A stretch of DNA of 64,000 nucleotides from NCBI RefSeq assembly GCF_008831285.2, contig NC_045148.1, positions 3,286,001 to 3,350,000 on the forward strand, in the 5' to 3' direction. Below the pieces are notes generated by a model. That model was not told the origin of the DNA. It saw only the letters and a list, made by a program, of their open reading frames with translations, and searched no databases. This DNA is from Nymphaea colorata (Eukaryota; Streptophyta; Magnoliopsida; Nymphaeales; Nymphaeaceae). This document shows, piece by piece, positions 782-41,245 of this stretch (positions within the stretch are counted from its first letter, which is position 1; each line of letters starts with the position of its first letter). A program made the translations under genes and the position numbers.

Positions 782-813
<32 letters not shown>

Positions 814-819
814 CATTTA
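1..819. other. Upstream region of trihelix gene, no gene recognised
   Basis: No convincing coding sequence is visible. The stretch has an AT microsatellite at about 105-133, CT tracts at about 400-420 and 769-813, and a short TG run near 518-530. The CT tract at 769-813 ends seven bases before the trihelix start codon, so it probably lies in the 5' untranslated leader. Short open frames here are C/T-rich low-complexity translations. Confidence 0.6.
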
Positions 820-1441: not shown

Positions 1442-1487
<46 letters not shown>

Positions 1488-2120
1488 GCGTGTGCGCTCA
1501 CACCCGCACAGATACCTTTTGGTCCCATCCAAAGGACTTTGTCTAATGGTTATTGTTGTGTCACTGTGTTTCTTCTGAAATGAATGTTCACAAACAGTTT
1601 TATCTACAAGAAAGGTTTTGCTTTTTCTGTCGAAAAAAACTTTCTTTCATTACGGAGTAAGTCTGTGACAAGTAGGAACACGCGGATGCCGGATCGAGCG
1701 CACGGATTTAATCCGCTTGAGAATGAGTCGGTTGCTTTTTTACATAAACTGTGGTGTTAAATTGAAGAATGTTGGTATGTATGTGTTCTCCTATCATGAA
1801 ACTTTATTTTTATTTGCCGCAAAAAATTTGCAGTTTTCTGTGACTCTGCATTCGGCTGCACATCCTTCAAATTTCGCATAGCGTGCTTCCCTTTCCACAG
1901 GCTTTCTGAGAGTCGGGCAGTTCTTTCTGGTTTTCATAGACATTTCCTTGTTTGCGTATTCTCTCTCTTCCTCTTCCTCTCTCTCCCTCCCTCCCTCTCT
2001 CTCTCTCTCTCTCTCCATCTGCTTTCTTGATCTTTCCACAACTGCAGATGGTCATCAATATTACTGATTTCCTTAACCGTAGTTGATGCTTCTAAATAAC
2101 ACAGCTAGTTTTATGGCTAT

Positions 2121-2158
<38 letters not shown>

Positions 2159-2837
2159 CATAAGTAATCCCTGCCCATTTCATGGAATGAGCTTTTTGTT
2201 TAATATTGCACTCTTCTTGTAGTAATCTCCGTGTTCCTGCATGTAGGCATTTTTTTCACCACCCGGCCCCTATTTTCACTGGTCATTATAGATTTTATGA
2301 TGGGCGACTGGTTTTCTTTATATGGGGCCTACTCCATGTACATATATACCAAGATTATGGTTGCCTGCAAGGCTGCAACATGGAGTCCCACTTTGTCTAT
2401 GCTGCCACTAATGCTGCAGCTGCTGCCTGTATTAATGCTACAGGTCGTTTTTCACTGTTTCTTTTGGTATTGATACATGCTGTGTTATGTTTCATGGGAG
2501 ACGTCTGATGGCATCAGATTTGGAGGGAAGTGAACATTCAAGTTCTCCCTCGAAGAAGAGAAAAGCCCAACAAAAGCAAGTTGACAACGATGAACTGGAC
2601 ACGTTGGGCTCTGCAATCTCCAAGAGTGCTTCCATTATCGCCGACACTCTTTTGGCATGTGAAGAGAAAGAGGAGAAGAGGCAGAGGGATCTCATTCATT
2701 TAGAAGAGAGGAGGCTGAGGATTGAAGAAGCCAACGCAGAAGTGAATAGAGAAGGGCTCAATGGCATTGCGGGGGCTCTCGCCAAGCTTGCCAATTCCTT
2801 CCATGCATTGACGACGCACAAAAAACCCGCTGGATAG
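820..2837 (+). CDS. Trihelix transcription factor, At1g31310/At2g35640-like (two exons)
   Basis: This is a plant-specific DNA-binding protein of the trihelix (GT factor) family, expected in the nucleus. My model is join(820..1441, 2518..2837), 313 residues. The trihelix domain covers about residues 23-125, with the three core tryptophans at W27 (GNWTLDETLALIEAK), W64 (ELRWKCVENYC) and W87 (NQCNDKWDNL). It is followed by SYWVMDRHERRERNLPSNLLPQ, a signature I recall from the At1g31310/At2g35640 group. A proline-rich linker (PPPPQPP) ends exon 1. Exon 2 encodes a basic stretch (SPSKKRKAQQKQ) and a charged helical C terminus (EEKRQRDLIHLEERRLRIEEANAEV) resembling the family coiled coil. The start is the first ATG after the CT tract. 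The splice is phase 1 on both sides; other phase-1 donors upstream of 1441 are possible. Confidence 0.85.
2518..2837 (+). CDS. Trihelix gene exon 2 (C-terminal coiled coil)
   Basis: The acceptor is GCATCAG|ATTTGG. Two bases complete the codon begun in exon 1, then LEGSEHSSSPSKKRK follows to the stop at 2835-2837. Other AG sites just upstream (2443, 2500) would put the frame out of register with exon 1. The encoded helix with AISKSASIIADTLL and AGALAKLANSFHAL matches the end of the At1g31310-type proteins as I recall them. Confidence 0.75.
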
Positions 2838-5800
2838 CAGAAATTTGCTATCAGCCATCTAAAATGGAGAATAATAAAGGTGGTTGGCGTCTTTGGCGTT
2901 GAATTTGTCTCAACATGCTCTCTCTCTCTCTCTCTCTCCACCCTCTGGCATGTCCTGGTGGAATTGAACTTGGCTCGACAGAATCACAGATGTTTTTAGT
3001 AATGCAGTCATCTGGAAATCCCTGAGTCTTCTTAATAATGGATCTCTCTCTCTCTCTCTCTCTCTCTTCTCTGCAATTGTTATCTGATTTAAACATCAGA
3101 GTGCCAGTGTAGGGTTGCCGTCCAACATACTGGGGACGTTTGTGATTCTACAGAAGTCAAAAATTCACTACCTTCTTCATTTGTAAATTTCTGGCCACTG
3201 GGTATCATCTTATGCAGATCAGCTATCGGTGGCGAGCATGATTTTGTTCATTCTTTTCAAATGAGATGATTGGATTCCGTTAATCACGGGACATTGTTCT
3301 ACACCTGCGCCTTCAATGTTGTGGCTTTTTTTGTCCAACTTTCGTCTTAAATCATGAAAAGGTGCACTTGGGTGTATGATTTCTCAGGTGAAAATGGTGC
3401 ACACTCCTCAAGAAAAACCTCCACAATAAGTGGCATGCACCTCCTCGCCCCTTTTCTTTCTCCATCAATCCGATGACAGTAAGAAGAGATTGACGTTACA
3501 TGTAATAAAAATAAAGGGCCATCTACTCCTATTGAAATGGTAGCCGGCCATCTCTGAAAGTCCTAATGCTGGACACGCTAAGATATGGCTATTCGAAAAA
3601 CTTTTATGTGATTACTTTATGAATTTGTCTTACAAAATTGGGTCATGTTCATTTAACACTAAAACTCACTAATCCATGAGTAGATCTAGTTTTTAAGGTC
3701 AATTCGTCTGACGCAAGATCAAAGCAACAAGATCTTTGTATTTTTATTCAATCCGTTTTTACTCTATTTAAAAGCTTTTAATCCTCATTTGCAAAGAGTT
3801 ATTTTGAGTGAATGAAAACCCTAAAGGCTATGTTGCATTCGCTTTTCATTTTTTGATCCCTTTTGCATCTCTTCGTTTAACTATAGATTAGTTTGGCGTT
3901 TGATCGTGGATTAGAAGAGTAGTCCTCCTTTTCACTGCATCACAATTGCAGAGGGTTCCTTTGTCCAAACACTGCTTATACAAAACGAAAAATCATATTT
4001 AGAGAACTTAATTACCAGTTCAATATTTTTCAGACGTTAATTTGTTGTTCATGCATGCTGAGAACTTCAGGTCTCCCAGTTTTTGTATTTTATGTATCGT
4101 TCCAACTTTATCGGATGTCTTCTAAGAAACACTTATATTTTATATAGGGATGTGATTTTTACAAGACATCTAAGTTCTTGCCCAGGCGGACGTGCAGTTT
4201 TGAAGTACACGATCAAATAGCAGTACCCAAAGCCTTTGGTTACCAGATAGGAGTATATATGGAAGAAAAATGGAAGAAGCTAATTACTTAATAATGCATT
4301 AGTTGTTACAGTTGATGGCGATCTTGTCTAGACCGGTTAATTTGAATCTAATCGGTTGCAAATCAATTTTATTTTCCGGTCAATTCAAGGGCACCACATG
4401 GCATATACCATCCATTTTCTATTATTTTTTATTATCTTTGAAATATTGTGGTTTTTTTATATGTATTTCTTCTTATCTTTTAGAAAATGTATATAATAAT
4501 GTTTGTTGCTAACTCATAACCGGTTCAGCTGAATTGGCAGCCAAACCAGTTTGGTTCAAATTTCGATTTTTACGACGTCCATGGTTAATGGGAATCGATC
4601 GAATGAGCAATGTAAAGCTCGGAGAAGCAAAGCAAGCTTCTACATAACTAAAAACTCATTTATGAGCCCCAAAAAGAAAAAGATAATTCCAACTTCCAAT
4701 GGCATCTTTCATGTTGAGCATGCAAAAGGCCAAAAGACTATGCAAATAAGAAAATGACAACAAAGCGATTTGTAGTCAATAATTTTTTATAATGCGCATT
4801 TTTTTTCAACTCAGTATGTGATATTACCAACATTACTTAAAAGTATAGCAAAGAATCTTGCATGTTAAATGAGAAGAAAGAACGGATCCAAAGAATGGTT
4901 TGTTTCAAACAAAAGAAATTAACGATGATGAATATCCTGATAAGAATATTTGAACCACCTTCATATTTTCTGAATTTGGTGCGGCCAGTCCCGAACTTGC
5001 TTACTTTTCTCAGACCTTAATCATATTATACAAATTTAGTGGATCGGTATTTGGACGTAATACCTGACTGAATTACATTGACCTTCTTTTTTTTGGGTTC
5101 TGCATCCCTACACCATGTATTACTTATCCAGAAGCTCTTAGTCGTTCGGATTTGGATCCTGTTCTGCCTTCTTATATCATTGTCCGAACCTGATCATATC
5201 CCTGGACCTAGCATCAATCATTCACCAGGTCTGATTTGTGTATCCCACATAAAATTTAGTTTCCGGATCCAACCCAGATCCAATTAACCAGTCAGCAGTG
5301 ATATGTCTATAATGTTGTTTTAGGATCCAATCCAAGCAGACGGGGTCCAGTTAAGTGCTTCTCGTATTGCGGACCCAAGGCGGATTGAAGCACGACCCGT
5401 TTCAAGAACGGTAATTTCAATTCCTGCTCCTTCTGCGGTAGGATATTTAACCCCCGCTTTTCCCCTGTTGTAAACCTTCGGTGGCACCGATTAACCACCG
5501 CCGTTAGATCTTGGTCGACATCGACCCCACGGTCCGTACAGGATGAGAAAAATTGTCTGTAAAAATAATAACGAGGAAGAAATTTTGATTGGGTCTGTTG
5601 CAAACGACAAAAAATTATATGCGCAGTGTTTGATTAAGTTCCACGGTATGCCCCTCTACTCTCATACATCGACAAGCTTGCCTGCACAGGTCTGTTCCAA
5701 TCTCCTTTCCAAACATATATCCGTCGGTCCGTAATGGATATAAATGGATCTTCTAAGGGGTCCTTTAAAAGTAAGAACGTTCTTTCTAGCGTGGGGCAGA

Positions 5801-8403
5801 TCAATGGAACTATATAGTTGTAGTGTTTCATGAATTTGTCCCACCTAGAGTTTCATGAATCTATCATCATCTTTAAGACAGATTCATGTAATATCTTTAA
5901 AGAGTTTTTTAGTATTAAAAACATGATATGAGTGTTTCATGAATCTACCATAAAATTAGGGTAGAATCATGAAACATTTGAATAACTATCCCATGAATGT
6001 ATGCCAATTTTAGAGCAGATTTATGAAACACTTTATTGTTATTCCTAATGTCAAACTGCCCTTAAGGAGAAGAAAATGAGGTGGCATCTGCATATGATCG
6101 CATTTGATTATCCTGCTACACTTGCATGATTTAGCAATTAAATTGGGTGCTTAAAACTTACATCTCTTTACTAAAATGAACACATCTGGAGATGTTTATG
6201 CCCTTTGTTGTGATATTTTATGAATGTTTTATTAAAAGTAACCAAAACAACTTAGACGTACTAAGTTTCACAACCCATGCATAGAAGAAATACATCAAAA
6301 TAAGTCTAGAATTAATCAGAAATTTATGAAATTGAAGTTCTTATTAATTTTCACCAAAAGCTAAGCACTTTCCATAATGTTTGACATATTATCCCTCTTT
6401 TTCTGGGAGTACCTTCCACGTGGAACTCTTGATCAATGATCCTCTTCAATTTGAATGTCTTGTATTTGTTTATCTACCTCGCTCAGTAGATGAAGCTAAA
6501 GTTTGCTTCTAATTTCAACTTGCAAATTCAATATCATTAAGCTTCCACACGTGTAACTAGATCTTGACTTGTACAAGTATAATGACTATTACCACTTCTT
6601 TCACTCTCTACAATAAACCTTCCATTTCCAGCAGCATATAGACAAGGATGTGTCCATGTGTGCGCACATGTTTATGTGTGGGGGGAGAGAGACAGAGTTT
6701 TATGGTTGTCATATTCGATCACATAGTTGTCATGATCAAGTTAGGCGACAGCAGGAACGAAGGATCACATGGACATGGTTCCTGAGTGGCACCTAACTAG
6801 ATGAGCTCAGGTTGTGTGGTGATAATGCATCTAAGTTAGATGTACTAATACTTTCATTTAGCAATATGAATCAAGATCCAAGCTACCAACAAATGTTGGA
6901 TGCACTAATGCTTTCATCTGGCAATGTAAAACGTCTGGACCGCCAACAATTTGGGCTTGATCAAAATCCAACTTTTTGTAGCTATAGTAGGATCTGATTT
7001 TGTTGATAAAGAAAGAAATTCAATTAAAATGTTTTAGATTGGCATATAATGCCATGAGTTAGTTTGAACATTTCTATGATAAATCTGCTCTAACTTCTTA
7101 TTAAGAACCTTTACAAAGTACACGAGGTTTTTCTTTTCTCGTGATTAGTCCTGGCAATAAGGCAAGTGCTCGCGAATGCAAATGGTTCCGCGCCTGGTGA
7201 ATTATCACCATCTGATTCAAACTCAAATACACGTATACCTTTCATACCAAAACCGACTCCAACTAAGCTTGAATCCAACATCACAATTTAAGTTCTGGAT
7301 TAAACATAAACTCAACTTCAAATCATGATATAAAACTGCATACCAAAGCAAAAAAACCGGTTAACTACTCAAATTTATTTTTTTTCCAAGAAACCCACTA
7401 ATCAAACCCATATTTGGTGCCGTTAATCGAATATATCAGATTTATCAACCGAAGTCAGATCCAACCCCTTACGACCCCTGACTCCGAAACTTGAATCCAA
7501 TGGCTCCAACAAGGCTTGAGGTAAACGGAATCGGCCGAGGCGTTTTAGCTTCACCGAAGAATGGGGCCAAAAGGTCGAGGGAGGGGTACTGTTGTAATTT
7601 GAAGAAGACCAGACCCACGTCCGTCCTTTCCTCAAGGAAAAGTTTGACTGTCCTTTCCCCAACTACAGACGTCCGGTGTGGGGACAAATATTTCTAACGG
7701 ATCGCCTTGGTTTTTGTTTGTTCTCTGACACGTCTGACGTTTTGACCGCCTCCTCTTTGACCTGTACCTTGCCCTGACACGTCGCTTTCGTCCCACTGGC
7801 CTCGACATCGCGACCGTCCAGTTCCACCCCACTCTGAAGATGGACCAGATTTTCCTGAGAAACTACCACAAATGCCCTTGGGTTTAGGGGCCTGTCAGCC
7901 CTTGGACCGATGTCTCCGTGATACGTCTGAACCATCTTTTGGAAACCTACTCGATTCATCCAACCCTTTTATAAAAATGCCAGTAAGAGCACAGTTTTTC
8001 ACACAAACAGAAACAATGCCCCCGATATTCCGTATGAAATTGGCATTTTCTCACCTGGCACCAAACAAACATTCAAAACAAAAGGCCAGGCACATCATTT
8101 TCTCAGGAAATAGGCACAGTATGCGTCCTTGTAATCGAGGGATGGAGCCATGCATTTCACCCCTTTGTAGGAATTGATTGGCACTTTCCTTGCCTGTGAA
8201 AAAGGAAAAGGAATAAAAAAGTTTCGAAGGAGCATCCTTTGCCCAGAAGCGAGGACATGAATTTAACAGAGAAATTGCTGGAGCGAAAACCAGGCACATG
8301 TACTAGAGATTACACTTTCAAAGGACAAGGGAAAAAGAAATGATGAAGAGACATAACCAAAGATTTCTTAACAGAATGTATACCCTTCGAAAGAAGACAA
8401 AAT

Positions 8404-8438
<35 letters not shown>

Positions 8439-8502
8439 TCTCTGAGAAAACAGGAAAAAAAAACATCCTTCTCAACAATGCCGCAAAATTTTTGCTCGTA
8501 AC
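2838..8502. other. Intergenic region between two convergent genes
   Basis: The 5.7 kb lies between the stop codons of the trihelix gene (+) and the NEPRO-like gene (-). I see no gene that can be supported. Visible structure includes repeated direct and inverted copies of TTTCATGAATCTA between about 5825 and 6035, a 60-bp tandem duplication at 6836-6955, and an AT microsatellite at 8406-8434 about 70 bases past the NEPRO-like stop. Open frames around 7420-7960 exist on both strands and match nothing I recognise. Confidence 0.6.
6836..6955. repeat. 60-bp tandem duplication, diverged
   Basis: Two adjacent units share GATGTACTAATACTTTCAT / GATGCACTAATGCTTTCAT and end with CTACCAACAAATG / CCGCCAACAATTTG. 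The period is 60 bp (TGTACTAATA at 6841, TGCACTAATG at 6901). No coding role is apparent. Confidence 0.6.
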
Positions 8503-9125
8503 TTAAAAGATGCTATCTTTCATACTCCCGGCAGCTAGCAGATTGAAAAAGTAATCTTCAGACTCTTTAGAACTACCAGAAGAATCACGATCGTCAAAAT
8601 CTTTGGTGCCACCTCTTGCCTTCTTGAGCTTCCTTCCTTCATCTTCAACAGATTTTCCAAGTGAAATGAAAGAAACGCCTCGTATTGCCTTTGCTTTTGA
8701 ATCCGATGGGACCACACGTGTAGATAATGTGTTTGGAATTTTTTCCTGTGAACCTTCAGAGTTCCTTGCATCTTCACTGGCAACAAAACCTTCAACGTCA
8801 ACACTTGCCTTCTTCAGGTCGCTAGTTTTTCCATGTTGAGCAGACTCTCCCACAGAAATAAAAGCAACCTTTTGTCTTGCATCCACTTTTGCATCGAAAC
8901 TTTGATTTGGAGATGAATTCGACTCCAAGAAAAGACCTTGAGAATTGGATTCATCTCCAACGCCAAGCCCCATATTTTCCTCTCCATTAACATTACTAGA
9001 CAAAACGGCCCCAGATTGAACGCCAATTTCATCCTTACTGTATAGCATATTTCTGCTAGGAGAATGTCCATTTCCTGGACAACCTTCCACTGCCTTATTT
9101 TCACAACCTAATCCATCACATGAAC
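8503..9125 (-). CDS. NEPRO: NEPRO-like exon 8, variable C-terminal tail
   Basis: The acceptor is TTTCCTATTTCCAG|GTTC. The first two bases complete the Gly codon left by exon 7 in phase 1, so exon 7 joins this exon across 13.3 kb without another exon being needed. The 207-residue tail has two related segments, VAFISVGES...DLKKAS and VSFISLGKS...KLKKARGG, and ends in EDYFFNLLAAGSMKDSIF. Lys/Arg clusters may be nuclear or nucleolar localisation signals. I assign it by phase, strand and composition; I do not recognise the tail alone. An unrelated gene 3' exon is the alternative. Confidence 0.65.
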
Positions 9126-12100
9126 CTGGAAATAGGAAATCACCGATCTTTCATAAGTTCGGAATCTAGTGATCAATTGCACCAATCTTCTCAAATGAAA
9201 AGCCAGCATAAATGAATAAAACGGTGAACTTCTAGTACCAGTTGGCAACATCGCTTTTCAACAGAACCAGCTTTTCAAAGACAGACAAATCATACAAAAA
9301 ATTGACTAAAATCAAGATAGGTTTAGCAATATGTATTCGCAGGTTGTTTACCAAAGAGACGCAAAAAAAGAAGGATATGGCTCACTAAGCAAATTTCTTA
9401 ACAAAACCAGGTTTATGCTCTAAGGTCAGTATATCACGATAAATCTCAGGGCAACCTTCTATCTTGTAAAATAGCACGGCAATTCTCCTTTTCACTTTTC
9501 ATGATAAACCAAAGCAGAAACTAAATGAAAAGTTGTCTTTTTCATTTGACCACAGGTGAAAAGAGGGGAATGTGAAGAATGTCAAGGTTGACCTTAGATC
9601 AAGTCCAAGTCTGCCATTCTGTTGCTTAACCTTTCACTTACTGTTGCCATCATAAGGTTAGTGGTCAGGGCCCACCCTCATCTTCAAAAGAAAAAAAAAA
9701 CAAAACAAAACAAAAGAAAAACAAAAGAAAGAGAAACAGTATATTAACAAAAAACAAAAAACTGTGCTGATTCTGTGTGTCATGGCCCATAATCATGCCT
9801 AGCCTTAGATATGGACCATTTTGCTTCTTGAAGCAATGTCACATAGGTGCTGATACGGTATGGGTTTGGGTACGGTGGTATGGGTTCGGACACGGCAATT
9901 TTGAAAATTGTGGGTATGTGGGTACGGCAAATTTTATATTCTCAAAAATGATAAAATGAAAAAAAAACATTAATAGTTCACACTTTGTTTTATAATCCAC
10001 AAAAATTCTCAAAATTAAAGAAAAAATGGGAGGAAAATATAGAATCATAGTGGAAGGGAAATATAGAAGAAGGGAAAAATCAAAATTAGAGAAAAAATTA
10101 AGTTTGAAAATATAATTTTAAATGTTTTAAGATGCAGCCATACCCACGTACCCGTGTCGCCGTACCCACGTACCGACACGGGTACCTGGGCACCCGTATC
10201 ACAGTCTTAAAGTCTATGAAAGAATGATCATGTCACAAATTGTTATAACCTGCCACATAATATCAATTTTCAAAGGACTCTAACACAATTAGTGATTAAA
10301 ATGTCCATGATTAGCATACAAAATTCCATCTTCCTTGATGTTTCTTCAACAACCTTTTTTTCATATATGATGAATAGCAACGCATGTGGTCGTGGTAGCA
10401 AGGGCAGAGGGAGGGGGGCCACCTAGGCCATGGCCCCACCCCAACTAATTGAAAAAAAAAACATTGAAAAAAATAAAAAAAATTAGTTGTGCAATGTATT
10501 TTTTAGATTCAGGTTCAGTTTGGCCCTACCCATATCCGAGGTTAAACTGTTTGGCCCGCTCCTGAAAAAAATCCTGGCTCCGCCCCTGCGTGGTAACAAC
10601 ACATACTAGCCTTTTCGATTGTGAGACAAATGAGCTTAGAAGCCCAAGTGATCTCTTCATATCCCTTGTTAAAGAAGATACAAAAGGGGTTTTCTGAAAT
10701 ATTAGGAAGTTAGGGAGGATTTCTTTAAATGTTTTGTTATTTTTATTGGACTTCTTTTGTAATTTCCCTAACCCTAATCTCTCACGTAATGAAGCAATCT
10801 TTTTCCGCCTCTCTCTCTCTCTCTCTCTTGCAACATGGTATAAGAGCAGCAGTTGGCGTCGACGGTAGGGTGCGTTTTCCGGTGACCTTCTCTGGCGACC
10901 ACATTCTCCGGCAACCATCTTTCCGGCGAACAGGCAAGTGAGTTGCTTCTTTTTTTTATCGTCCTCTCTCTTGTCATCGCTACTCTTTATTCCCTTGTTA
11001 CGAGAGAGAGAGAGAGGCAGCAAAAAAGTTGTCTTGCATTACTTGACCCTAATCTCTATTAAGAGATTAGGGTTAGGGAAAATTACAAGAGAAGTCCACT
11101 ACAAGTAACAAAACATTTAAAGAGACCTTCCCTAACTTCCTAATATTTCAGAAAACCCCTTTTTTTGTATCTTTAACACTCTCCCTCAAGCTGGAGCATA
11201 TATGTCAATCATGCTCAGCTTGTTACAACATCTCAGGAAATCGCCTATGGGAAGAGCTTTAGTGAGAATATCTGCTGTCTGATCTTCTGAGGAGACATGA
11301 ATAGTGCTAACAATTCCTCCTTGAACTAAGTCCCGAATATAGTGGCAATCCACTTCAATGTGTTTAGTCCGCTCATGGAAGACAGGATTGTTAGCGATAT
11401 ATGTAGCTGCCTTGTTGTCACAATACATCTTCATTGGAAGATTCACTGAGACATCCAACTCTACAAGTAGTGATCTAACCCACGACATTTCAGCCACAGT
11501 TTGAGCCATAGCCCTATATTCTGACTCAGCACTAGAACGAGCCACAACATTCTGCTTCTTGCTCCTCCAGGAAATAAGATTACCGCCCACAAAGACACAA
11601 AACCCGGTAGTAGACTTCCTATCATCTACAGATCCAGCATAATCAGCATCACTATACGCCTCGATGTCAACACATTCTCCTTTCTTGAACCATAGCCCCT
11701 TTCCCGGGGCTGATTTCAAGTATCTTACAATCATTAGAGCTGCATCCCAGTGAACTTTTCGGGGTTTTTCCATGAATTGGCTCAACTTATTCACAGCAAA
11801 GCTAATGTCGGGACGAGTGACAGTCAAATATAACAGTTTCCCTATCAGAGATCTGTAAGATCTAGAGTCAAACGGCTCTGAGTCATCATCATGTATATGA
11901 ATGCGAGGATTCATGGGAAGTGTGGCAGGTTTAGCCCCCAATAGTCCTGTTTCCTGTAGAAGATCAAGAGCATATTTCCTTTGAGACACTACAACTCCTT
12001 TATTACTACGAGCCACCTCAATACCAAGAAAATAACGAAGTTGTCCAAGGTCTTTCGTAACAAAGTGTTGCTGTAAAAACTCCTTTGTTTGAGCTATCTC

Positions 12101-15100
12101 TTGATCATTTTCCCCTGTAAGAACAATATCATCCACGTAGACAATCAATATCACAAGTCCTGCTGAGCCTCGCTTGATAAACAATGAGTGATCAAGTTGG
12201 GATCGGCTAAATCCACACTTAGATAACACTTCAGTAAGCTTTTGGAACCATGCACGGGGACTCTGTTTGAGTCCATAAATAGCCTTCTTTAACTTGCATA
12301 CCTTGGAACACTCCCCTTGTCGCTCAAAACCAGGTGGTTGCTGCATATAAACAATTTCAGAAAGGTCTCCATACAGAAAGGCATTTTTGACATCCAATTG
12401 AAAAAGAGGCCACTCTCGTTGGACAGCAAGAGAGATAATCAAGCGAATAGTGCCCAACCGGGCCACAGGCGAAAAGGTCTCAAAGAAGTCAACACCATAA
12501 GTCTGAGTATAACCTTTTGCGACAAGACGGGCCTTGAACCTTTCAACTGACCCATCAGAATGATACTTGATGGTGAATACCCATCGTGAGCCAACCACAT
12601 CACAGCGTGTTGGGGGGTCTACCAAATCCCAAGTCTCCCGAGAAAGAAGAGCATCCATTTCCTCCTGCATAGCTTGTCGCCAACGTGGATCTAACAGGGC
12701 GTGATGGTGCGAGGACGGGATAGCATGACTAGATAAAGCTTGATCAAACTGTACTAAGTGTGTACTCAGATGAGCAGTAGAGACAGAATTAGATATAGAA
12801 TGTAAGGTACACTGTCGCTTGCCCTTGCGAATAGCAATAGGGAGATCTGCTGCAGAATAGTCATCAGTCAAACCTGAGTCAGTCTTATCAGTAGAGCTTA
12901 CCTCTTGAGACGATGCTGGTGGACGGTTGAGAGAGGGACCTAGACGACGAGTGTAAACCAACGGAGGCTCAAGAAAACGTTCATGTGACCTAGGTTGAGA
13001 TGATGGAAATGACTCAAGTGACACTGGTGGAATAGGAAGAGGTATAGGTGCATGCATCTCAGATGAAGAGGGACTTGACGGAGGGAAATAAGGACGAGAC
13101 TCAAAGAAGGTAACATCCGCACTGATAATGTCTTTCTTGGTCACAGGATCAAAGCATTTGTATCCCTTTTGATTAGCTGAATAGCCAATAAAGATACATT
13201 TGATAGCTTGGGCAGCCAGTTTGCTTTTGTTCGGGCCTAAGATATGTGCGAAGCAAGTGCATCCAAAAACTTTGGGAGGTAAATGAAATAATGAACGCCC
13301 TGGATATAGAATTTGAATTGGAATACGGTCTTGAATGGAGGAAGAGGGTAATCTATTAATGAGGTAACACGCAGTAAGGATAGCATCACCCCAAAAATAG
13401 GCAGGCATGTGAGAATGTAACATGAGGGTACGAGCTACGTTTAGGAGTTGCCGATGTTTGCGTTCGGCTACACCATTCTGTTGGGACGTATGTGGACAAG
13501 TATATTGAGGTCGAATTCCATGGTCGGCATAAAACTGAAGTAGAATGGAAGACTTGAATTCAAGAGCATTATCAGTGCGAATATTTTTGACAATGAATCC
13601 AAACTGAGTTTTTATTTCCTTGATAAATTTTTAAAGAATACATATGACTTCAGATCTTTCCCTTAACAAGAAAACCCAACTGACTCTAGTAAAATCATCA
13701 ACTAGAACAAGATAATATCGAAAACATGATCGAAAAGGAACCCGACTAGGACCCCATACATCCACATGAATGAGATCAAAAGGACTCTGACTCGATGGAC
13801 TCTGACTCGAAGGAAAGTTGCTCCGTGTATGCTTGCCCAACTGGCAGGCATCACATAAGAAGGACTCTGATGCAGAAATGTCTGGAAACATGCGACGAAG
13901 TTTTGGTACGGAAGGATGACCCAATCTGAGATGCCATTGGAAGGGAGAAGGCTTGGAAGGGACTGAAGATGCAGCAACATCAACTGGGATTGACAAAAAA
14001 TAAAGGCCCTCACGCTCATGGCCGCCTCCAATCATCTTCCCAGTTGGTAAGTCCTGAAAAGAACAAGAGTCAGATTCAAAAATGACTTTACATTGTAAGT
14101 CGATAGCTAGCTGCTTCACAGATATCAAATTAACAGGAAACTGAGGTGCATATAGCACATGTGTAATAGTGCCTAAATGTGGAAGATAAATATCACCGCT
14201 ACCCAAAACAGGGGACAACTTGCCATCAGCCAGCTTAACATACTGTGGTGTAGAAAATCTGACAAATGATGAAAAATTTTGTGGTTGATTACAACAATGT
14301 CTAGAAGCGCCCGAGTCTATCATCCATGTCATACCTGGATCAGCAGTAGGAGCACCAACAGAGAATGCTGAATCTACAACAACAGCATTGGTAGATGTAG
14401 AGGCAGATGTAGAGCCAGACCTCTGAGCAAGAACACGATCATATTCATCCTTACTTAGGTTAAGAGAATATGACATAGATATAGAAGGATCAGTAGAAGA
14501 CTCAACCATAGATATTGTTGCCTTTGAATGAGTTGCCTGGGATGAAGAAGGACCTCTGCTTGTGGTGATTCTACCTCCACCACGTCCAGAGGAAACATTA
14601 GACCTGAGGTGAGGATGTTTGTCCCAACAACGGTCCTCTAGATGACCAATTTTGCCACAATAAGAGCACTGAAATCTGCCACGTCCAGCACCACGGCCTG
14701 TACCACGCCCCCTAGTGCCTCCAAAAGAACTAGGGCCCCGTCCTCCTGATATCACAAGTGCAGAGACTGGTATGTCATGCGTAGTCTGAGAAAGAGTGGC
14801 TGCAAAGCGACTCAGCCTATTATACGTGTCTGCTAAATCTGGAAGTTCACTGCCTGTTAGAATTTGAGACTTTGCCACAGAGTATTCTGAAGATAGGCCA
14901 GATAAGAACTTTGCCACCATACCAGTCTCAACGTGTGATGCATAACAATGCTGGCAAGGTGGGCGAAGAGCCTTTAACCGTTCATATGCAGCAGTCAAAG
15001 TAGCAAAATATTGAGATAGGTCCTGATCCCCTTGTCGAATGTTGCATAACTCCTCTTCTAGTTGTAGGATCTTGATTACATTAGTGGCATGCGAGTATGT

Positions 15101-18100
15101 CTTTCTCAAGAAAGACCACATATCATTGGCCTTGGTATAATATGCAATAGTTGGGGCTATATGAGACTCCACACTATTCATAATCCAAGACATAACAATA
15201 TAATTATCTTCATCCCACGCAGCATATATTCCTTTTTTCTCAATAGGTTCATCCTCCTCAAGAATATATTTCTTCCTATGACCAGCCACCGACATTATGA
15301 ATACCCTAGACCATATTTCATAATTTGAGCCATTAAGTTTCATCGTGGTTCCATAAGAGAATGAATTCCCAGCCATCTTGTAGTCAGTAGACCCTTCAGA
15401 TTTACTGTTTTCAGCCATAGTAAATAAAGAAGACCAGATTGACGCAAACGTTTAAAGAAGGAGGGCTAGGAAATTACTGTCACTTCAGATCTGATTTAGC
15501 CGATGACAAAAAAACAAGAATGAACTCCCAACGACTGAAGACTGTTGCTCCCAACGACTGAAGACTGCTGCCACTTATAACAGCAGCTAGTTCTCATAAA
15601 ACTTCCTGTCCACGTGTCAAAGAAATCCACGAAATCAAACAAAAACTTGTACTAAGGATCAGCAACAGTCCTCACGCAGCCTTTCTTTACTGAATTTGTA
15701 TCCACGATCTATAGAAAAAATCTGATCATATTCAAAAAACTGAATTTATAAGCAGCACATAGACTCCACAAAGCATCCACAACACCTCACGCAGCTTGAC
15801 TTTACCGAAACTGTATTTACGATCATCACAAACCACAGCGTCACACGTCACGCTGCATCCACAATAGTCTCTTCATACGACCAATATGAGGATCTGATCA
15901 CGCCTTCCACATAGGCGTGATCAGGTCCTCCTTCTCACGGCACGCCCAACCCCTATTCCCTCACTGTCTCCTTATTGGGTGATAAGAGGGAATAAGGAGT
16001 AGCGGTGACAAGGGAGAGAACGAGAGAAAAAAAAAAGGAACGAACTCACTTGGCTGTTCGTCGGAGAAGATGGTGATCGCCAGAGAAGGTCACCGAAAAG
16101 TGCACTCTGCCGTCGACGCCCACACCCGCTCTGATACCATGTTACGAGAGAGAGAGAGAGGCAGCAAAAAAGTTGTCTTGCATTACTTGACCCTAATCTC
16201 TATTAAGAGATTAGGGTTAGGGAAAATTACAAGAGAAGTCCACTACAAGTAACAAAACATTTAAAGAGACCTTCCCTAACTTCCTAATATTTCAGAAAAC
16301 CCTTTTTTTTGTATCTTTAACATCCCTCTTATCACCCAATAAGGAGACGGTGAAGGAATAGGGGTTGGGCGTGCCGTGTGGAGGAGGACCTGATCACGCC
16401 TATGTGGAAGGCGTGATCAGATCCTCATATTGGTCGTATGAAGCAGACTGTTGTGGGTGCAGTGTGACTTCTGACGCTGTGGTTTGTGGTGTTCGTGGAT
16501 GCTACTTCAACGGTGATTGGAACTTCATGTTCATCGTGTGAAGCAAAGTGTTGTGGATGCTTTGTGAAGTCTATATGCTGCCTATAAACTCAGTTTTGAT
16601 ATGATCAGAATTTTTCTATAGATCGTGGATACAAATTCAGTACAGTAAGGCTGCGTGAGGACTGCTGCTGATCCTTAGTACAAGATTTTTTTTTATTTTG
16701 TGGATTCCTTTGACACGTGGACAGGAAGTTTTTATGAGAACCAGCTGCTGTTATAAGTCATTATAAGTCATTATAAGTCGTTATAAGTCGCAGCAGTCTT
16801 CAGTCCTAGCCCTCTTTCTTTAAACTTGTGCGTCAATCTGGTCTTCTTTATTTACTATGGCTGAAAACAGTAAATCTGAAGGGTCTACTGACTACAAGAT
16901 GGCTGGGAATTCCTTCTCTTATGCAACCACGATTAAACTTAATGGCTCAAATTATGAAATATGATCTAGGGTATTCATAATGTCGGTGGCTGGTCATAGG
17001 AAGAAATATATTCTTGAGGAGGATGAACCTATTGAGAAAAAAGGGATATATGCTGCGTGAGATGAAGATAATTATATTGTTATGTCTTGGATTATGAATA
17101 GTGTGGAGTCTCATATTGCCCCAACTATTGCATATTATACCAAGGCCAAGGATATGTGGTCCTTCTTAAGAAAGACATACTCGCATGCCACTAATGTAAT
17201 CAAAATCCTACAACTAGAAGAGGAGTTATGCAACATTCGACAAGGGATAAGGACCTATGTCAATATTTTGCTACATTGGCTGCTGCATATGAACGGTTAA
17301 AGGCTCTTCGTCCACCTTGCCAGCATTGTTATGCATCACACATTGAGACTGGTATGGTGGCGAAGTTCCTATCTGGCCTATCTTCAGAATACTCTGTGGC
17401 AAAGTCTCAAATTCTAACAGGCAGTGAACTTCCAGATTTAGCAGACACGTATAATCGGCTGAGTCGTTTTGCAGCCACTCTTTCTCAGACTACGCATGAC
17501 ACACCAGTCTCTGCACTTGTGATATCGGGAGGACGGGGCCCTAGTTCTTTTGGAGGCACTAGGGGACGTGGTACATGCCGTGGTGCAGGACGTGGCAGAT
17601 TTCAGTGCTCTTATTGTGGCAAAATTGGTCATCTAGAGGATCGTTGTTGGGACAAACATCCTCACCTCAGGTCTAATTTTTCCTCTGGACGTGGTGGAGG
17701 TAGAATCGCCACAAGCAAAGGGCCTTCTTCATCCCAAGCAACTCATTCAAAGGCAACAATATCTATGGTTGAGTGTTCTACTGATCCTTCTATATCTATG
17801 TCATATTCTCTTAACTTAAGGATGAATATGATCATGTTCTTGCTTAGAGGTCTGCCTCTACATCTACCTCTATATCTACCAATGCTACTGTTATAGATTC
17901 AACATTCTCTGTTGGTGCTCCTACTGCTGATCCAGGTATGACATGGATGATAGACTCGGGCGCTTCTAGAGGTAAGTTCCACTGATAAGACTGACTCAGG
18001 TTTAAGTGATGACCATTTTGCAGCAGATCTCCCTATTGCTATTCGCAAGGGCAAGCGACAGTGCACCTTACATCCTATATCTAATTTTGTCTCTACTGCT

Positions 18101-21100
18101 CATCTGAATACAAGTTTAGTACAGTTTGATCAAGCTCTATCTAGTCATGTTATCCCGTCCTCGCACCATCACGCCTTGTTAGATCCACGTTGGCGACAAG
18201 CTATGCAGGAGGAAATGGATGTTCTTCTTTCTCGGGAGACTTGGGATTTGATAGACCCCCCACACACTGTGATGTGGTTGGATCACGATGGGTATTCACC
18301 ATCAAGTATCATTCTGATGGTTCAGTTGAAAGGTTCAAGGCCCGTCTTGTCGCAAAAGGGTATACTCAGACTTATGGTGTTGACTTCTTTGAGACTTTTT
18401 CGCCTGTGGCCCGGTTGGGCACTATTCGACTGATTATATCTCTTGTTGTCCAACGAGAGTGGCCTCTTTTTCAATTGGATGTAAAAAATGTCTTTCTGTA
18501 TGGAGACCTTTCTGAAATCGTCTATATGCAGCAACCACCTGGTTTTGAGCGACAGGGGGAGTGTTCCAATGTATGCAAATTAAAGAAGGCTATTTATGGA
18601 CTTAAACAGAGTCCCCGTGCATGGTTTCAGAAACTTACTGAAGTGTTATCTAAGTGTGGATTTCGCCGATCTCAGCTTGATCGCTCATTGTTTATCAAGC
18701 GAGGCTCAGCAGGACTTGTGATATTGATTGTCTACGTGGATGATATTGTTCTTACAGGGGAAAATGATCAAGAAATACTCTCCCCTTGTTCTAAAGGAAG
18801 AGGTATACATGGAACAACCCCCAGGTTATGCTACCAATGATCCAACTCAGTGGGTGTGCAAATTACAAAAATCGTTGTATGGGCTTAAGCAAGCATCTCG
18901 CTCATGGTTCGATAGATTTTCTTTTTATATACAGCAGACTGGTTTTCTCCGAAGTTCACTTGATCATTCTTTATTCATATATCATGCGGGTGAAGTTACC
19001 ACTTGGCTACTCATATATGTAGATGACATACTTCTTATTGGAAATTCTTCATGTCATATATCTCATGTTAAGGAGGTATTGAAACAAGAATTCAAGATGA
19101 AGGATCTCGGCGAACTACGGTATTTCTTGGGTGTTGAGCTTGATAGAAAAGGTGACACATTAACTCTTACGCAGCATAAATATACTCTTGATATTCTGGA
19201 TAGAGTAGGTATGACAAATTGCAAGCCCATAAATACTCCTAGTGTTTTCAACACAAAATTGAATGTCTTTGATGGGAGTGATGCATATTCAAATCCTAGT
19301 TTCTATCGGAGTATAGTTGGCATGCTACAATATCTCACCTTTACACGTCTAGACATAGTGTATGCAGTGAATCAAGTATCTCAGTTTATGCATGCACCCA
19401 CAGAAGGGCATATGGATGCTACCAAACGCATTTTGCGTTACCTTAAGGCTACTCTTGGGGATGGACTCATTTACACAAGACAGTCAACTATTTTGAATGG
19501 ACATAACATTTCCACCTACATTGATGCAGATTGGGCAGGTGATCCAGACGATCAGTTTCAGGTTATTGTGTCTTCCTTGATTCCAATCTTATTTGTTGGA
19601 GTAGCCGAAAACAACGTGCAGTTGCCAGATCCAGCACTGAGGCAGAATATAGGGCAATAGCTGCAGGCACAGCTGAAGCCTCATGGTTACGTCATCTGCT
19701 TGGGGAACTCTCCCTTCCCATTGCTCAGTCATCTTTATTCTGTGACAATCAAAGTGCGATCAAGATTGCTTTCAATCATGTTCTACATAATCGCACTAAG
19801 CATATGATCAACACTTCATTCGTCAAAAGGTCGAGGAAGCCGAGATCGTTCCTACTTATATAGCCACGTCTCAACAAGTAGCTGATCTTTTTACCAAGAG
19901 GCTCACAGGGCACCATTTCTGGGAATTGAAGAACAAGTTGTGCATGATCAAACCTCTGCACAACTTGAGGGGGGCTGTTAAGATTGTACAAATTGGATCG
20001 GGTCTACAGACCCGATCCATCTTGCCCATATACCTAAATATAATGGGCGGTGGCATACTTGTAAATACTTGTTGTTTTCTGTATTTACTTGTAGCATACA
20101 TTAGGTTATATTAATGACAAGGAGGAAGGGGCCACGGTTGCTGCCCTCTTTTCTTCTCTCTCTCTATTGCACGTGCAGTCACCTCCTCTTCTTCTCTTCT
20201 CGCATCTACAAAGGATTCAATCCAGTGGTTTGGCGTAATATCTCAAAATCTTACACATTGGCCATCTCAAAGACTTCAAAATTAGAAGGTTTCTTCCCAC
20301 TAGAGTTTTGTTTCCGGTTATGTTTTTTCTCTGGATGAAGATCCCAACAAAACTCAATAGTATGACCAGTCTTCGAGGCCGCCTAAGAACACAAACATCA
20401 TGTTCTTTCATTCCTTGGTCCAATATAGGGTCTCTGGTCTAGAGGACAGCTCCAAACATCATCAATATAATAGTCTAATTCTTCCCACTTAGACTTCAAG
20501 GCAGCATAAAAGTCAGCAACTGACCTATCCCTTTGGCACAGAGGATATACTTCTTTCATCAACTGATACATACGAACATCTTTTTTCTTTTGACCATACA
20601 TCTGCTCTAAGATTGCCCACGTCTTAGAAGGATAAGGGGCTGAATATCCGAAGCCGCTGAATTGACAATCTAAGTTTTAACCTGATTGTCCTCAAGGAAC
20701 CATGTGTCCCATGCTGGATTTGTTTCATGTGGTTTAGCCTTTCTTCCATTGATATAGGCAATCTGTCCATGACCGGCGATTCCCATAGTAATGGACGCGG
20801 ACCAGCGCATATAATTATCCATGATAAGTCTAATAGTAGGGACTTGAACCGGAATATTTTCAGTTTTGGAGACCCCGATATCAACTCGGTTACTAACAAC
20901 CGATGAATCTGATTCAGCCATCACAATGTAGTAAGTACGCCACATGAGGAAACAATGGCAAAGGCTATTGCACGCAACGGTGCAAACAGCAGCACACAAG
21001 GTTCCTCATGCAACAACTGAACAAACGGCTCGGGCAACAATTGGACAAACGGCAGAATTGCAGGTGACGGTGCCTGTGCAGCTCGAGCGACGCCCACAGT

Positions 21101-24100
21101 ACTCAGGCAACAACTGAACAAACGACAGCGGCTGCACAACTTGAGCAACGGTGACAGAAGGCTCGAGCGATGCAGCTTGAGCGACGGCCACAGAACGCTT
21201 GGGTGATCCAGGCAACAATGGCAGCAGGATCAGGCGACACAGGCAATAGAAGGCTCGGGCAACGCAAGCAACAACTGCAGCTCAAACGACGGTGGCAAAA
21301 GTGCAAGTGGCGGCAGAAGCTCAGGCGACGACAACAGGGTCCCGGTGACAACAATGGTAGCTGAGGACTACACTGTGCGCGGGTTGACGACAGGAAAAAC
21401 AGACGATCCCATACGTGGTGCTCAGACAAGCTGCAGCACGAGTGACGCCATCTGTGGTGACGAGGGGAAACAGCAACCGAGCGATGGCGGACGGTTGGCG
21501 ACTACAGGAAATCCCAAAAAGGGCCACGCATGATCAACACCAGTGATGGACGGATTCACGCCCAAAAATAAGCTCAGAAATTTGTCGCTTTGATACCATG
21601 TAGAAACAAAGCACCACACACGATGTAACGTGGAAAAATCCCTCAAGAATGAAAGTAAGAAACCATGTGAGATGAGAAGGTAGTGGACGATGCTCACTAG
21701 CTGCCACCACACCCTTTCTCTCTCTTAAACTTCATTCACAATAAAAAAATAGGGTTACTCAGTCACGGGTCAGGTCTAGACCCAAAGCCGACCTAGTCAT
21801 ACAGTCGTCAACAACCACAACTACCATTACACATCAGCTTCAAGTTTCATGAAATGACTTCAATGGTAAACATGGTATGTTGTCACTTCAGTTGGCATGT
21901 CTTGCTGACAAAGCTGCCGAGTGCAGGTAAGCCTTCTTCCTTACCCCCTCTTAATCCTTTTAAATCGATGTCTGATCTGCCGATGGATAAGGTGGGGCTG
22001 AAAGGGCTATCAAGGAGCTCAGGGAGAGATTTCTCCTTCTCTGCGTCTCAAGGAGGAATCAAGAAGGATTCTACTCCTGTCACATACAGGGGCAGGAAAG
22101 GAAGGGGCAAAGGTAACTTGAGTACTCCTACCAGCAAGACAGGTTTCGGCGCTGGAAAAGTGGAGGAATCCCAATCTGTGCGCACCCCTCTGGCAACAAA
22201 GAACTCAGCCTTGGCAGGCCCAGAAGTCTCGATCAGAGTTACCAGAAAGAGGAAGGCTAAAGGGAACTTGGACTGAGACAAAGAGTTACTTATTGAATTG
22301 AAATCCACATGAAAATCAACCAATACAATCCTCGTTAGGACTGCCTTAGAGGAAAAGATATAACGACACATGATCTTATTATCAAATGAAATGACATCCA
22401 AATTTACCAGCCTTGAGTAAGCCTTAGAAAGTTTCATTTATAGATTACCTTCGACCAGTACACCCATAGTTTCATAGTCGATGTTGGAGATACAATCAGA
22501 TTTTATTCCTTTTACGCTAGACTCCGCATTTTCGTTACTTTGGGATGTCTCAAGCAAACAGAATTTGCCATTTTCCCAAACACATTGTAGTGCAAGAAAC
22601 TCTTTATTTGCTGAGTAAAAGTCTCTGAAGACCTACATATGAAGAAAGGATAAGTATAACATCTTGCGAATATGATAAACAACAGACTAGAAAAGAAGCT
22701 AATTCTTCTAAAAGTCATAAACAGAGAAAATACCTAACTTGCCATAGAAAGTGAAAGAATTCACTGCTAAGCACCGTACTCAAATTGGAACTATTATATA
22801 AAAATGAATGAGAAAAATAACTTTTATGCAGGCATTACAGTCAGACACCATCTACCTATGGAGAGAGAGTTAACCAGATCTGAAGACAAATATCATGTGA
22901 TTATACATGACTTCAACCCAGTTTGGACTTCCAACAACAGTTAGGTGTTGAGAAGGCTCTACAACATGGTTGCTAAAGCACAAAGACATTGCAAAATGAC
23001 ATTGAATCTGAATTGAATTTTTTTTCATGCAAGTAGACCATATTGAAATGCCTCATGTAATGGAGTAGATTAGCAATTTATGAAAACCTTAGTATCTAAA
23101 CTTAACTTCTGACATGGTGCAGATATTTGCACATTCTTTATGCTATACATAAATATGGTGAATGGATGGTTGAGTATTTAGAACTTAATGTAATGATAAC
23201 GATGGCATTTCAAAGGTGAAAAGAAAATGTTCATGAAAATAACTGTGAAACCTTAAAAAAAAAAAAAAAAGTTTGCCAATTGACAAACTTGAAGATTGCA
23301 CTTCATGGTATATCCACGTTGAAGTAATTCTGTCAAGAACAAAATTCCTCTGGCCAAATCATGAGGCTACCCCTAAGGACTTGAAAATTCTTGTTCCACA
23401 GGAGCACGCTTAATCTTTCTTGTTAGAAAAGGTTTGAAATGATGGACAGTCAAGAAATCAAGAACCAATGAGTGAAGAGTTTCATCTCTTTGGCTTTAAG
23501 CAAAATACTTTTAAAGCATGGAAATGGATATGATAGATAACCTTTTCATTATTCCTTTATTAACCTTAACTCTGTCTGCTATGATAATTCTCTAAAACTC
23601 ACCCCAGTGAAAAGAACTTAGCTTTTCGAAGAAGCTACATCTCAGGAATCACTGCAGAATTTCAAAATCAATTTGAGGCTTCTAACTTGTACTACTATTT
23701 AACAAGAAGTGCATAACATGTAAATGTTCCTAGCCAAGAAAGGTTTAATTTCGCTGTACCTTGTACTACTTTGGACACATAACCTGCGACACTTTGAAAC
23801 AATGTTGTAAAAAGCGTATCGTAAGTCATATCGTTCCGGCTTTAAGATACGCCCTATCGTAACGTATCGTAACCGTATCGTAAATTGTTTTAATAAATCA
23901 GAAAAAATAGGAAAAAAATCGAAAAATTCATAAAAAATCAGTAAAAAACAAGAATAAATGAATAATATGTTCTTCACAAAAAACATGTTTTACAGAATGA
24001 TAAATTTATTATTGCTATAAAGTTACGGTTCATCATTTGTAAACATCAAAATTCATAACAATATCAATCTAGAAAGCACAACAAGTCAACAATTACATAA

Positions 24101-27003
24101 CGTATATCATAATTTCATAACCATAGATTCATAAGTCATAAGGTATTAAGGTCCATAAGTCTATTAGATACCACATCAAAAAACAAGTTTTACTGTTTTA
24201 GATGTTATGTATTACATCACAAGATGATAATGAACTTGTGAAAATGTTCAATGTCAATACATATAAAATGAAAGCACTCTTGACTCTCATTCATAATCTT
24301 CATCATATTCATTCTCATCCTCATCTCCATCTTCTTCTTCATCTTCATCTTCACGATTTAAAAAAACCCCTTTTCTCTCAACGGGAAACAACCACCCACG
24401 CACAAATCCATGATTTAATCGATGAAATCCATGATTTAATCGATGATTTCATTTTGAAAAACGAAGATTTAACGATGGAAATCGATGATTTCCCTCCACG
24501 GCACAATCTCTAGGTTAGAAATGAAGAAGAGGCGGGTTTTTATAAAGAAAACTCGAAAAATGGGGATTTGAGCCCTCTTTTTTGAAATCAGCCCGTATCG
24601 TACGATACGGAGGTCTGTATCGTACGATACAGGGGCCTGTATCGCATGTATCGTACGATAAAGGCACGATACACCCCTATTTACGATACAGGAGGTGTAT
24701 CGTATCGTATTTTGCAAACGATACGTACAACACTGCTTTGAAATAACAAAAGTTGAAAACATTGTATTTTGAGAAATTATATACAAAGGTGTTACCATTT
24801 AAAATTTTTGGTTCAATCCAATCATAATAAGTCATCTAAGACAGTCTTAAGAATCATGGTCCATAATTGTCTATATCTGCCATTTGCAAATGATGCCTAT
24901 TTTTTATTTATAATTTTTTAAAAGCTTTGCATCTCATGATGACAAAATACTGCAAGCAACTAGGTTCCAACTACTAGAAGTTTCTGGAGAGCAAATTTTC
25001 CAAGATAGACGAAAAAAAATTCAGCCACTATGCTTCTTAAATACCCTAGCTCGTTTGCAGCCTCTCTGTAGGATACCTACAAGACTGCTTCAAAACTTCC
25101 AACAAAAAACTGAATGACTCGCTCCCTTAGCACCAATAAACCCATATGAGGGGGCATGTCATTGTTCCACCCATTATACGGTAGACATCTCTCTATCCTG
25201 GCAACAATATGGATTTGTATAAATTCCATGAAACATTTCATAATTGAAACTACTATAAAGGATAAGAGTTTCAAGATTGCCATGTTTGGAAACCTTATAC
25301 ACACACATACATGTAGCAAAAGCACAGAGAAACTTAGAAATCATCAAACAATAAAATGGCATAGTCACTCCCAAATAGGAAATATATGTGGGCAATTTTC
25401 TCAAACAAAAAACTAGGAAAAGCGATCCACGTAAGTGTGGGAATTTTCTAAGTTGGAAAATAGATAGACAGGCAAAATGATGTCACTAAATAGTGACTTT
25501 CCACCCGACATGAAGGTTCCAAAAGCACAACAGTTTGAGATAAACAGAATATGACAATTATGAAATAAGTGTGAAACCTTGACTCCTTCATGAGTAAGCT
25601 GAAAAGATTGCTCTTTCTTGGCAAGAATGGACACCATGTTGAATACAGAAACAATATCAAGCAACATCTGCCCATTTCAAAATATAAATACCTGTAGTTA
25701 GAGACAACCTTCATGGCGAAAAGGAAAAATCAATAGCAACACAATATTTTAGAATCCAACTCCAGCTTCCAGTTATGTAAGATGACATGACTAAAATGGA
25801 AAAGGAAAACAGGTAGTATACTTTTATAGCACATCTATGAGAAGAATCTCTAAACACATACACGGAGTTTTAGCAGCTGAATGGCTAATTTATCAAAAAA
25901 GTAATACTATGACAACTGCATATTTTAGTTGTAAATGTCCTAAATTCCTAATGATGCCTTCTGAGTTCTCAGTTTTACATGAAAAGAAAACAAAACATGG
26001 AATAACCGAATAGGATTGCATGTCTACAGCCTGATAATACAACAGGGAATTTAAACTCAAGCTGAATGAAGGAGAATTGGAGAATGTTTCTAGTCCCGCT
26101 AAATGGAATGTGTAGTATTAGAACCTACGGTGCAAGATTAATTTAGAAAGACAATGACTAGCAAACTGGGCGCAGTGTTCATTTCTACAATCATCACTTG
26201 TGAAATAAGTATGATGCACAAACAAACAAACAAAAAAATCAGAGACAGAGAACATGCAAACCATAAAATTCCATCACACATATGGTGCACAAAAAGCAAG
26301 TGGAAACCAGAAGTTGAACAGGATAAGAGAAATGAGAAGTGACAAATAAGCACGTAATCACCCATTCCATGAGTGGGACAGCTTAGGCATATGCCTAGCA
26401 GCCAAGTCCAGGACAATACCTAGGGACCTTAAGCCCAAGGACTCTTGACTACTTAGCTTCATTGTCACAAATATTGCTTACAGGTTTTAAACAGCAAGGT
26501 TTTTCTTGGGTATCATATAGCAAATTTATTTTTTCAGGAAAATATTGGTTAAAAAAATTTTAAAAATTTCTAAAATAAAATTCAGAAAATGCAAAAATAA
26601 AAATGCAGTAATAAAAAATGGCAAAAAGTGCCAAAAAACGTGAAAAAACTTGCTTTTTTGGCCTTTTTGGAGTTTTTTTCTTTTTGGCCGCTTTTTCAAA
26701 AGATGGGTCATTTTGCAATGTTTTTGGCTGACCTATTTTTGATGTACAAAACAGGTTTTTTTTTTTGAAAAAATGTGTTTTATAATACAATGCTTAGATG
26801 CTTTTTACACAGATAACAGCATTTCACTAATAGACATTGTTAAAGTTTTCTAGAGTCAATTTGAGTCTTTCTGAAATATTAGAAAGTAGACAAGGGTCTA
26901 CTTATTGTTTTCTTATATTTTAGTGGACTGAAATTGTAAATATGTAGTCAACGCCCTAATCTCTTGTAAAAGAGATTAGGATTACGTGAATGACACAAGA
27001 AAG

Positions 27004-27044
<41 letters not shown>

Positions 27045-38762: not shown

Positions 38763-38939
38763 CAAAATCCTTCTCTCGGTCGAATTGTGACGAGCACAAG
38801 CCGAACGAAGAAACAAAAAACGGCGGCAAAAAGGGGGAAGCGCTTGCCTGAAGCGCGTCACCGTTGAGCGGATCGGATCTGGATTGGATCAATCGGAGGT
38901 TCGGATGGATCCGATTGATTGGTCACAAGGAAAGTGAAC

Positions 38940-41118: not shown

Positions 41119-41245
<127 letters not shown>

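Follow-up and report, generated by a model that had tools for sequence, protein, structure and literature searches.

A nested pair of copia elements in the last intron of a NEPRO_N-domain gene

The window analysed here is a stretch of 64,000 nucleotides of the Nymphaea colorata genome (assembly GCF_008831285.2, contig NC_045148.1, positions 3,286,001 to 3,350,000), and our subject is a pair of copia retrotransposons, elements 1 and 2, that lie in it in opposite orientations, one inside the other, within the last intron of a gene for a NEPRO_N-domain protein. How plants first recognise a new transposon is an open question, and one idea is that silencing is seeded by the hairpins of antisense nests that arise by chance. 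The locus is such a nest, young and natural, in a genome assembly, with fixed arms and possible targets that can be listed. Its features are given below in window coordinates (LTR, long terminal repeat; TSD, target-site duplication; PBS, primer-binding site).

9126-22448, minus strand: host intron 7, the last intron of the NEPRO_N-domain gene, containing the whole nested structure
10996-16322, minus strand: element 1, copia with complete LTRs and two long open frames split by a single in-frame stop
10996-11178, minus strand: element 1 3' LTR, 183 bp
16140-16322, minus strand: element 1 5' LTR, 183 bp, in the loop of the main hairpin
10667-10835, plus strand: element 2 5' LTR, followed by a PBS-like site
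10836-10847: PBS-like site of element 2, TGGTATAAGAGC
10836-10995, plus strand: left part of the element 2 leader, its final five bases being the TSD TCCCT

Element 1 is a copia element that integrated antisense into the leader of its relative, element 2, as a sequence-only reading of the window had proposed. Element 2 belongs to a sister subfamily, is the older of the two and has lost part of its sequence. Element 1 is flanked by direct repeats of the 5-bp TSD TCCCT at 10991-10995 and 16323-16327, its LTRs differ from one another at 1 of 183 bp, and the leader of element 2, present to the left of the insertion point, resumes to the right of it. The presence of the TSD on both sides of element 1 shows that it integrated into element 2 in the normal manner. 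Pfam searches detected copia gag, GAG-pre-integrase, SH3 and RVT_2 in element 1, with GAG-pre-integrase and SH3 above their cut-offs; the integrase core (rve) scored 18.3 bits, below its cut-off of 32.6. Gag, an integrase upstream of RVT_2, an LTR pair, a 5-bp TSD and a PBS place elements 1 and 2 in Ty1/copia, the tests being those of element 1 and element 2 being internally deleted. The LTRs of the two elements are identical in 132 of 168 aligned columns.

Downstream of the internally deleted element 2 we found no 3' LTR of its kind. The element ends within the reverse transcriptase (RT) at about 18777, where it is directly joined to the RT of a different copia (RVT_2 in 18728-19660), creating a chimeric junction. 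By eye, an apparent polypurine tract and an LTR near 19977-20250 close this plus-strand chimera, and a copia gag start on the minus strand (20673-21005; Retrotran_gag_3 at 18.0 bits, below the cut-off of 24.1) adjoins its end.

Three foldbacks along the locus

The antiparallel arrangement brings three pairs of related segments into opposition. The arms of the two longest duplexes, and the segment that separates these duplexes, are as follows.

14300-15991, minus strand: left arm of the main hairpin; element 1 leader, gag and first protease codons
16323-17970, plus strand: right arm of the main hairpin; element 2 leader and gag, starting with the TSD TCCCT
12095-12908, minus strand: left arm of the second duplex; element 1 pol, 94.5% identical to 18777-17965 over 814 columns (BLAST)
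17965-18777, plus strand: right arm of the second duplex; element 2 pol
12909-14299, minus strand: one-sided bulge, 1391 nt of element 1 that are deleted in element 2, separating the main and second duplexes

When aligned by BLAST in inverted orientation, the main arms (14300-15991 against 17970-16323) are 89.7% identical over 1712 columns, 84 of which are gap columns; this length and identity are far beyond chance. To the right of the insertion point, with gap columns excluded, 1509 of 1615 columns are identical, and the same count for the coding columns of this part is 1070 of 1113. The inverted arms claimed by the sequence-only reading are therefore real. It had assigned leader, gag and protease to them: leader and gag are indeed there, whereas only the first codons of the protease are included, the arms ending at its DSGAS motif. 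The 331-bp loop had been said to hold an LTR, and it consists of the element 1 5' LTR and element 1's copy of the leader piece that lies left of the insertion point. The main arms themselves contain no LTR.

Folding yielded the anticipated long hairpin on either strand, with 1532 inter-arm pairs on the minus strand and 1539 on the plus strand. Uninterrupted runs of at least 21 bp (G-U pairs counted) number 25 on the minus strand and 24 on the plus strand, the longest being 110 and 95 bp, respectively. The folding energy per nucleotide is -0.805 (minus) and -0.798 (plus) kcal/mol, as compared to -0.207 to -0.295 kcal/mol for the minus strand of five control stretches of equal length.

The sequence-only reading had missed the second duplex, and also a third foldback at 10667-11178, in which the element 2 5' LTR and the element 1 3' LTR face each other across a loop of approximately 160 nt and form 145-146 pairs, with uninterrupted runs of up to 34-35. 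A single minimum-energy fold of 10667-18777 (minus strand) holds all three duplexes, with 1530, 782 and 145 pairs. With its three foldbacks (gag/leader, pol and LTR × LTR), the locus belongs with the endogenous long inverted repeats; as a sequence and as a predicted fold, it has the very long and nearly paired stem-loop that, within a single transcript, defines this class. Another inverted copia pair in the window, 42696-45634 and 60765-63652, is 65% alike and 15 kb apart, and is too diverged for a long duplex.

The host intron

The sequence-only reading had placed the nest in intron 7 of a NEPRO-like gene, and our analysis agrees. The intron starts with GT at 22448-22447, ends with AG at 9127-9126 and keeps the reading frame. 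Note that the eight exons of the host gene were read by eye from open frames, so that this gene model is drawn from the sequence alone. The translation of the joined exons reaches 37.7 bits for NEPRO_N, above the cut-off of 24.9; a partial set of exons, when joined, scores 18.6 bits, below the cut-off. Whole-frame Pfam scans of the minus-strand stretches 1-9902, 19900-29901 and 31500-41501 found no family. At 13.3 kb the intron is long, and it is rich in transposons; according to the same by-eye exon reading, a further copia, element 4, lies in a different intron of this gene.

Two minor observations concern the host gene. Its protein (8504-38800) has a sub-threshold match to RMP1, an RNase MRP subunit (17.6 bits, cut-off 27), which beside NEPRO_N is a possible hint that the two families are related. 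Within the host intron, 21797-22276 on the plus strand is a 159-aa open frame with a Lys/Arg-rich end and without a Pfam match.

Family copies across the genome as potential targets

The genome searched comprises 407,766,735 bases in 783 contigs, including 14 large ones (C1-C14, 12.6 to 44.0 Mb). A gag 35-mer, with up to 3 mismatches allowed, occurs at 91 places (46 plus, 45 minus), both arms included. Apart from the two arms, no two of these places lie on opposite strands within 25 kb of each other. Random distribution of 91 places over C1-C14 produced, in 346 of 5000 trials, two places on opposite strands within 6 kb. Such a pair is thus uncommon, yet it needs no special cause.

We then compared the arms with 38 further copies, that is, 40 scored places minus elements 1 and 2; these are a non-random selection, the best matches to the element 2 leader out of 318 candidates. 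Every one of them has exact 21-mers in common with each arm, with medians per copy of 1329.5 (element 1 arm), 546 (element 2 arm) and 486.5 (21-mers that occur in both arms); the lowest copy (L011) shares 16 and 50. With low-complexity 21-mers removed, 38 of 38 copies still match both arms and the element 1 LTR, and 37 of 38 match the element 2 LTR. The suggestion of the sequence-only reading that the copia family could be silenced from here thus holds as far as potential targets are concerned. It does not extend to the neighbouring element that had been named as one of them.

26838-31527: element 4, same superfamily, approximately 80% identical to element 1; TSD GACAT; most of gag missing

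Element 4, the LTRs of which are identical at 210 of 213 positions plus 21 gap columns, was rejected as a target of the main arms, with which it shares no 21-mer, either exactly or within one mismatch. Its match to the second duplex is weak: of its 4670 21-mers, 1 is exact and 44 or 55 are within one mismatch.

In 10-kb stretches around the 7 of the 38 copies without a 3' LTR at the expected distance, we found no inverted pair of at least 150 bp above 66% identity. One copy, L079 (C2:23449547-23459546), adjoins an opposite-strand relative with inverted matches of 59% and 65%, and is a weak parallel to the nested locus.

Age of the insertion

A tree built from the 5' internal part places element 1 in the youngest cohort of the family. 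Its terminal branch is 0.0019 long (12 of 39 other sequences have shorter ones), it carries 1 private state over 1840 sites (4 of the 39 others have none), and it differs from copy L028 at 6 of 1837 sites. Element 2 groups with L002, L005 and L008, and the two elements represent sister subfamilies approximately 6% apart.

Over the arms, element 2 differs from element 1 at 93 of 1627 sites and from 15 siblings of element 1 at 90-96 of 1617-1626 sites. Since it is equally distant from element 1 and from these siblings, the arm mismatches are older than the insertion of element 1, and no homogenisation of the arms is seen. Lower identity to the left of the insertion point had led us to consider gene conversion between the arms. 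We rejected this possibility, since element 2 resembles the 15 siblings as closely as it does element 1, and since the same contrast between left and right against element 1 is seen in L002, L005 and L008.

An LTR pair was found in 31 of the 38 copies; in 16 of them, leaving gaps out of account, the two LTRs are free of substitutions. The LTR pairing is doubtful for L021 (31 gap columns) and for L015, which lies in tandem with L010 (C1:41730795 and 41735414 for L010 and L015, respectively) and probably shares one LTR with it; neither L021 nor L015 is among the 16. LTRs of only 183 bp resolve too little to put insertion events in order.

Comparison with known systems

The closest precedent is EVADE of Arabidopsis, for which an antisense nested insertion was described in one of the two rdr6 lines that were silenced (Trasser et al. 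2024, PMC11624286). There, too, a copia lies antisense within its own kind, and a hairpin or convergent double-stranded RNA (dsRNA) was proposed to start silencing (PMC11624286). The two cases differ in how the nest is known and in how it is built. The EVADE nest, which involves copies of a single element, was deduced from read pairs of one plant in an experimental line, and the hairpin proposed for it is LTR-based (PMC11624286), whereas the Nymphaea nest, a copia antisense inside a relative and bordered by a TSD, is present in a genome assembly, joins sister subfamilies approximately 6% apart, sits in a host intron and has long gag and pol arms with a small LTR × LTR foldback. The two are alike in that small interfering RNAs (siRNAs) are, for both, a proposed output. 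In EVADE, the switch to transcriptional silencing did not require methylation of GAG, and the LTR was the origin of the 24-nt siRNAs that act in trans (PMC11624286).

Mu killer (Muk) of maize is likewise a rearranged copy from a transposon family, the transcript of which can fold into a kilobase-scale hairpin matching the family (PMC2563033). Here, the arms match 38 of 38 copies examined. Muk, however, derives from one DNA transposon, part of which is duplicated in inverted orientation; its hairpin is perfect over 2.4 kb, its siRNAs are 26 nt long, and the silencing has been demonstrated to be heritable (PMC2563033). The Nymphaea arms, by contrast, are imperfect (89.7% with gaps for the main pair), come from two retrotransposons and are known here as sequence. 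Endogenous inverted-repeat siRNAs (endoIR-siRNAs) arise from very long stem-loops without an RNA-dependent RNA polymerase (RDR) and have sizes of 21, 22 and 24 nt (PMC4687873). Two Arabidopsis loci of this type, IR71 and IR2039, share with the locus a very long endogenous stem-loop for which no RDR would be needed; they differ in that the precursor of IR71 was shown to be transcribed and, as the authors of that study read their data, is processed efficiently by DCL2, DCL3 and DCL4 (PMC4687873).

Sirtrons resemble the locus in that an intron hairpin is the source, here the candidate source, of siRNAs formed without an RDR. The sirtrons of Chen et al. 2011 are reportedly short intron hairpins that act on their host gene. 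The Nymphaea locus is a composite foldback with approximately 2.3 kb paired, and it would target a transposon family rather than the host gene. The term stands for intron-derived siRNAs (PMC5545994). A search by wording of an open-access library returned no paper that combines nested or opposite-orientation LTR retrotransposons with hairpin siRNAs and introns; among open-access papers naming Nymphaea colorata together with siRNA, none, judging by title, profiles small RNAs of this species.

The foldback as a candidate source of siRNAs

The locus is a real and cleanly explained long inverted repeat, which joins the endogenous inverted repeats on the one hand and the antisense nested copia insertions on the other. 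What it may do can be modelled on these systems. Any transcript crossing the locus would contain both arms, whether it be the host pre-mRNA (minus strand) or plus-strand read-through from the element 2 5' LTR, upstream of both arms; the 5' LTRs of elements 1 and 2 could also be transcribed convergently, as proposed for the nested EVADE locus, and provide dsRNA by a third route. The transcript would fold into dsRNA of the endoIR type, and dicers would process part of it, at least, into siRNAs of mixed sizes (21-24 nt). The match of these to the young family would lie in its leader and gag and, to a lesser degree, in its LTRs. These siRNAs would add to the silencing of the family and would not found it. 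We consider this whole course of events an evenly balanced proposition; in our judgement, the odds that siRNAs are made from the foldback are about even, and those that the hairpin controls the copia family are about one in ten. Given that EVADE could switch without GAG methylation, and that its 24-nt siRNAs acting in trans were LTR-derived, a gag hairpin on its own points to silencing at the mRNA level. Silencing directed at the promoter would need the LTR × LTR foldback, the sole candidate source of promoter siRNAs.

Several points weigh against siRNA production from the foldback or against its effect on the family. Introns are usually spliced out and degraded, and a transposon-rich intron such as this one may be heterochromatic without any role of a hairpin. 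Only 552 of the 1671 distinct 21-mers of the left arm occur exactly in the right arm, so that the duplex is imperfect over much of its length; LTRs are absent from the main arms; and copies as young as element 1 are common, 16 of 31 having no LTR substitution as compared to its one. The precedent itself is incomplete: the nested EVADE locus was not tested by its authors, and the LTR siRNAs of that plant are mostly 24 nt, while hairpins usually give several sizes (PMC11624286).

A serious rival, to which we give a somewhat smaller share than to the siRNA-producing foldback, is that the nest is a passive by-product, an ordinary nested insertion in a long intron, and that any siRNAs belong to the usual Pol IV/RDR2 24-nt class, found over young transposon copies in general, with the foldback contributing none. 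Nested insertions are, as is generally known, common in plant genomes, the random placements yield a comparable pair in 346 of 5000 trials, and the identity of the arms has not been maintained, element 2 being as far from element 1 as from its 15 siblings. On the other hand, the position in an intron makes transcription of both arms likely if the host gene is expressed, and very long, nearly paired stem-loops are known substrates of plant dicers (PMC4687873). A further rival is that the insertion created a Muk-like killer locus that ended the family's burst in trans. The membership of element 1 in the youngest cohort (6 of 1837 sites from L028, 1 private state over 1840), its place in the only opposite-strand pair within 25 kb and the potential targets in every copy examined speak for it, but insertions at least as young as element 1 exist, as shown by the 12 of 39 shorter terminal branches, the 4 of 39 sequences without a private state and the 16 LTR pairs without substitution. 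With so many copies of an apparent age like that of element 1, there is no sign that the hairpin brought the family to a halt; the arms without LTRs and the coarse resolution of 183-bp LTRs also speak against this scenario, which we regard as unlikely. Just as improbable, in our view, is a natural 'hairpin trap' seen shortly after its formation, in which the antisense insertion into an old copy of a sister subfamily made a single intron locus out of two copia copies, and this locus, driven by the host promoter, makes gag and LTR siRNAs that now restrain the family of approximately 90 copies. Finally, assembly is difficult across long inverted repeats, and in a family with many copies two separate ones could have been wrongly joined head to head; the exact 5-bp TSD on both sides, the complete LTRs and the continuation of the element 2 leader on both sides are marks of real integration and make an assembly artefact very improbable.

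The locus is a good test case for the idea that nests seed silencing, and not yet evidence for it. Mismatches specific to each arm allow siRNAs to be assigned to one arm or the other, and family copies free of a hairpin serve as controls. If the nest is no source of siRNAs, the idea that nests seed silencing loses weight.

Other features of the window

Plus-strand exons at 49000-60000 presumably encode a protein resembling molybdenum cofactor sulfurase, by motifs; Aminotran_5 over these exons has an E value of 0.011, below the cut-off. An open frame at 712-1578, plus strand, encodes a Myb/SANT-like domain (Myb_DNA-bind_4, 51.9 bits).

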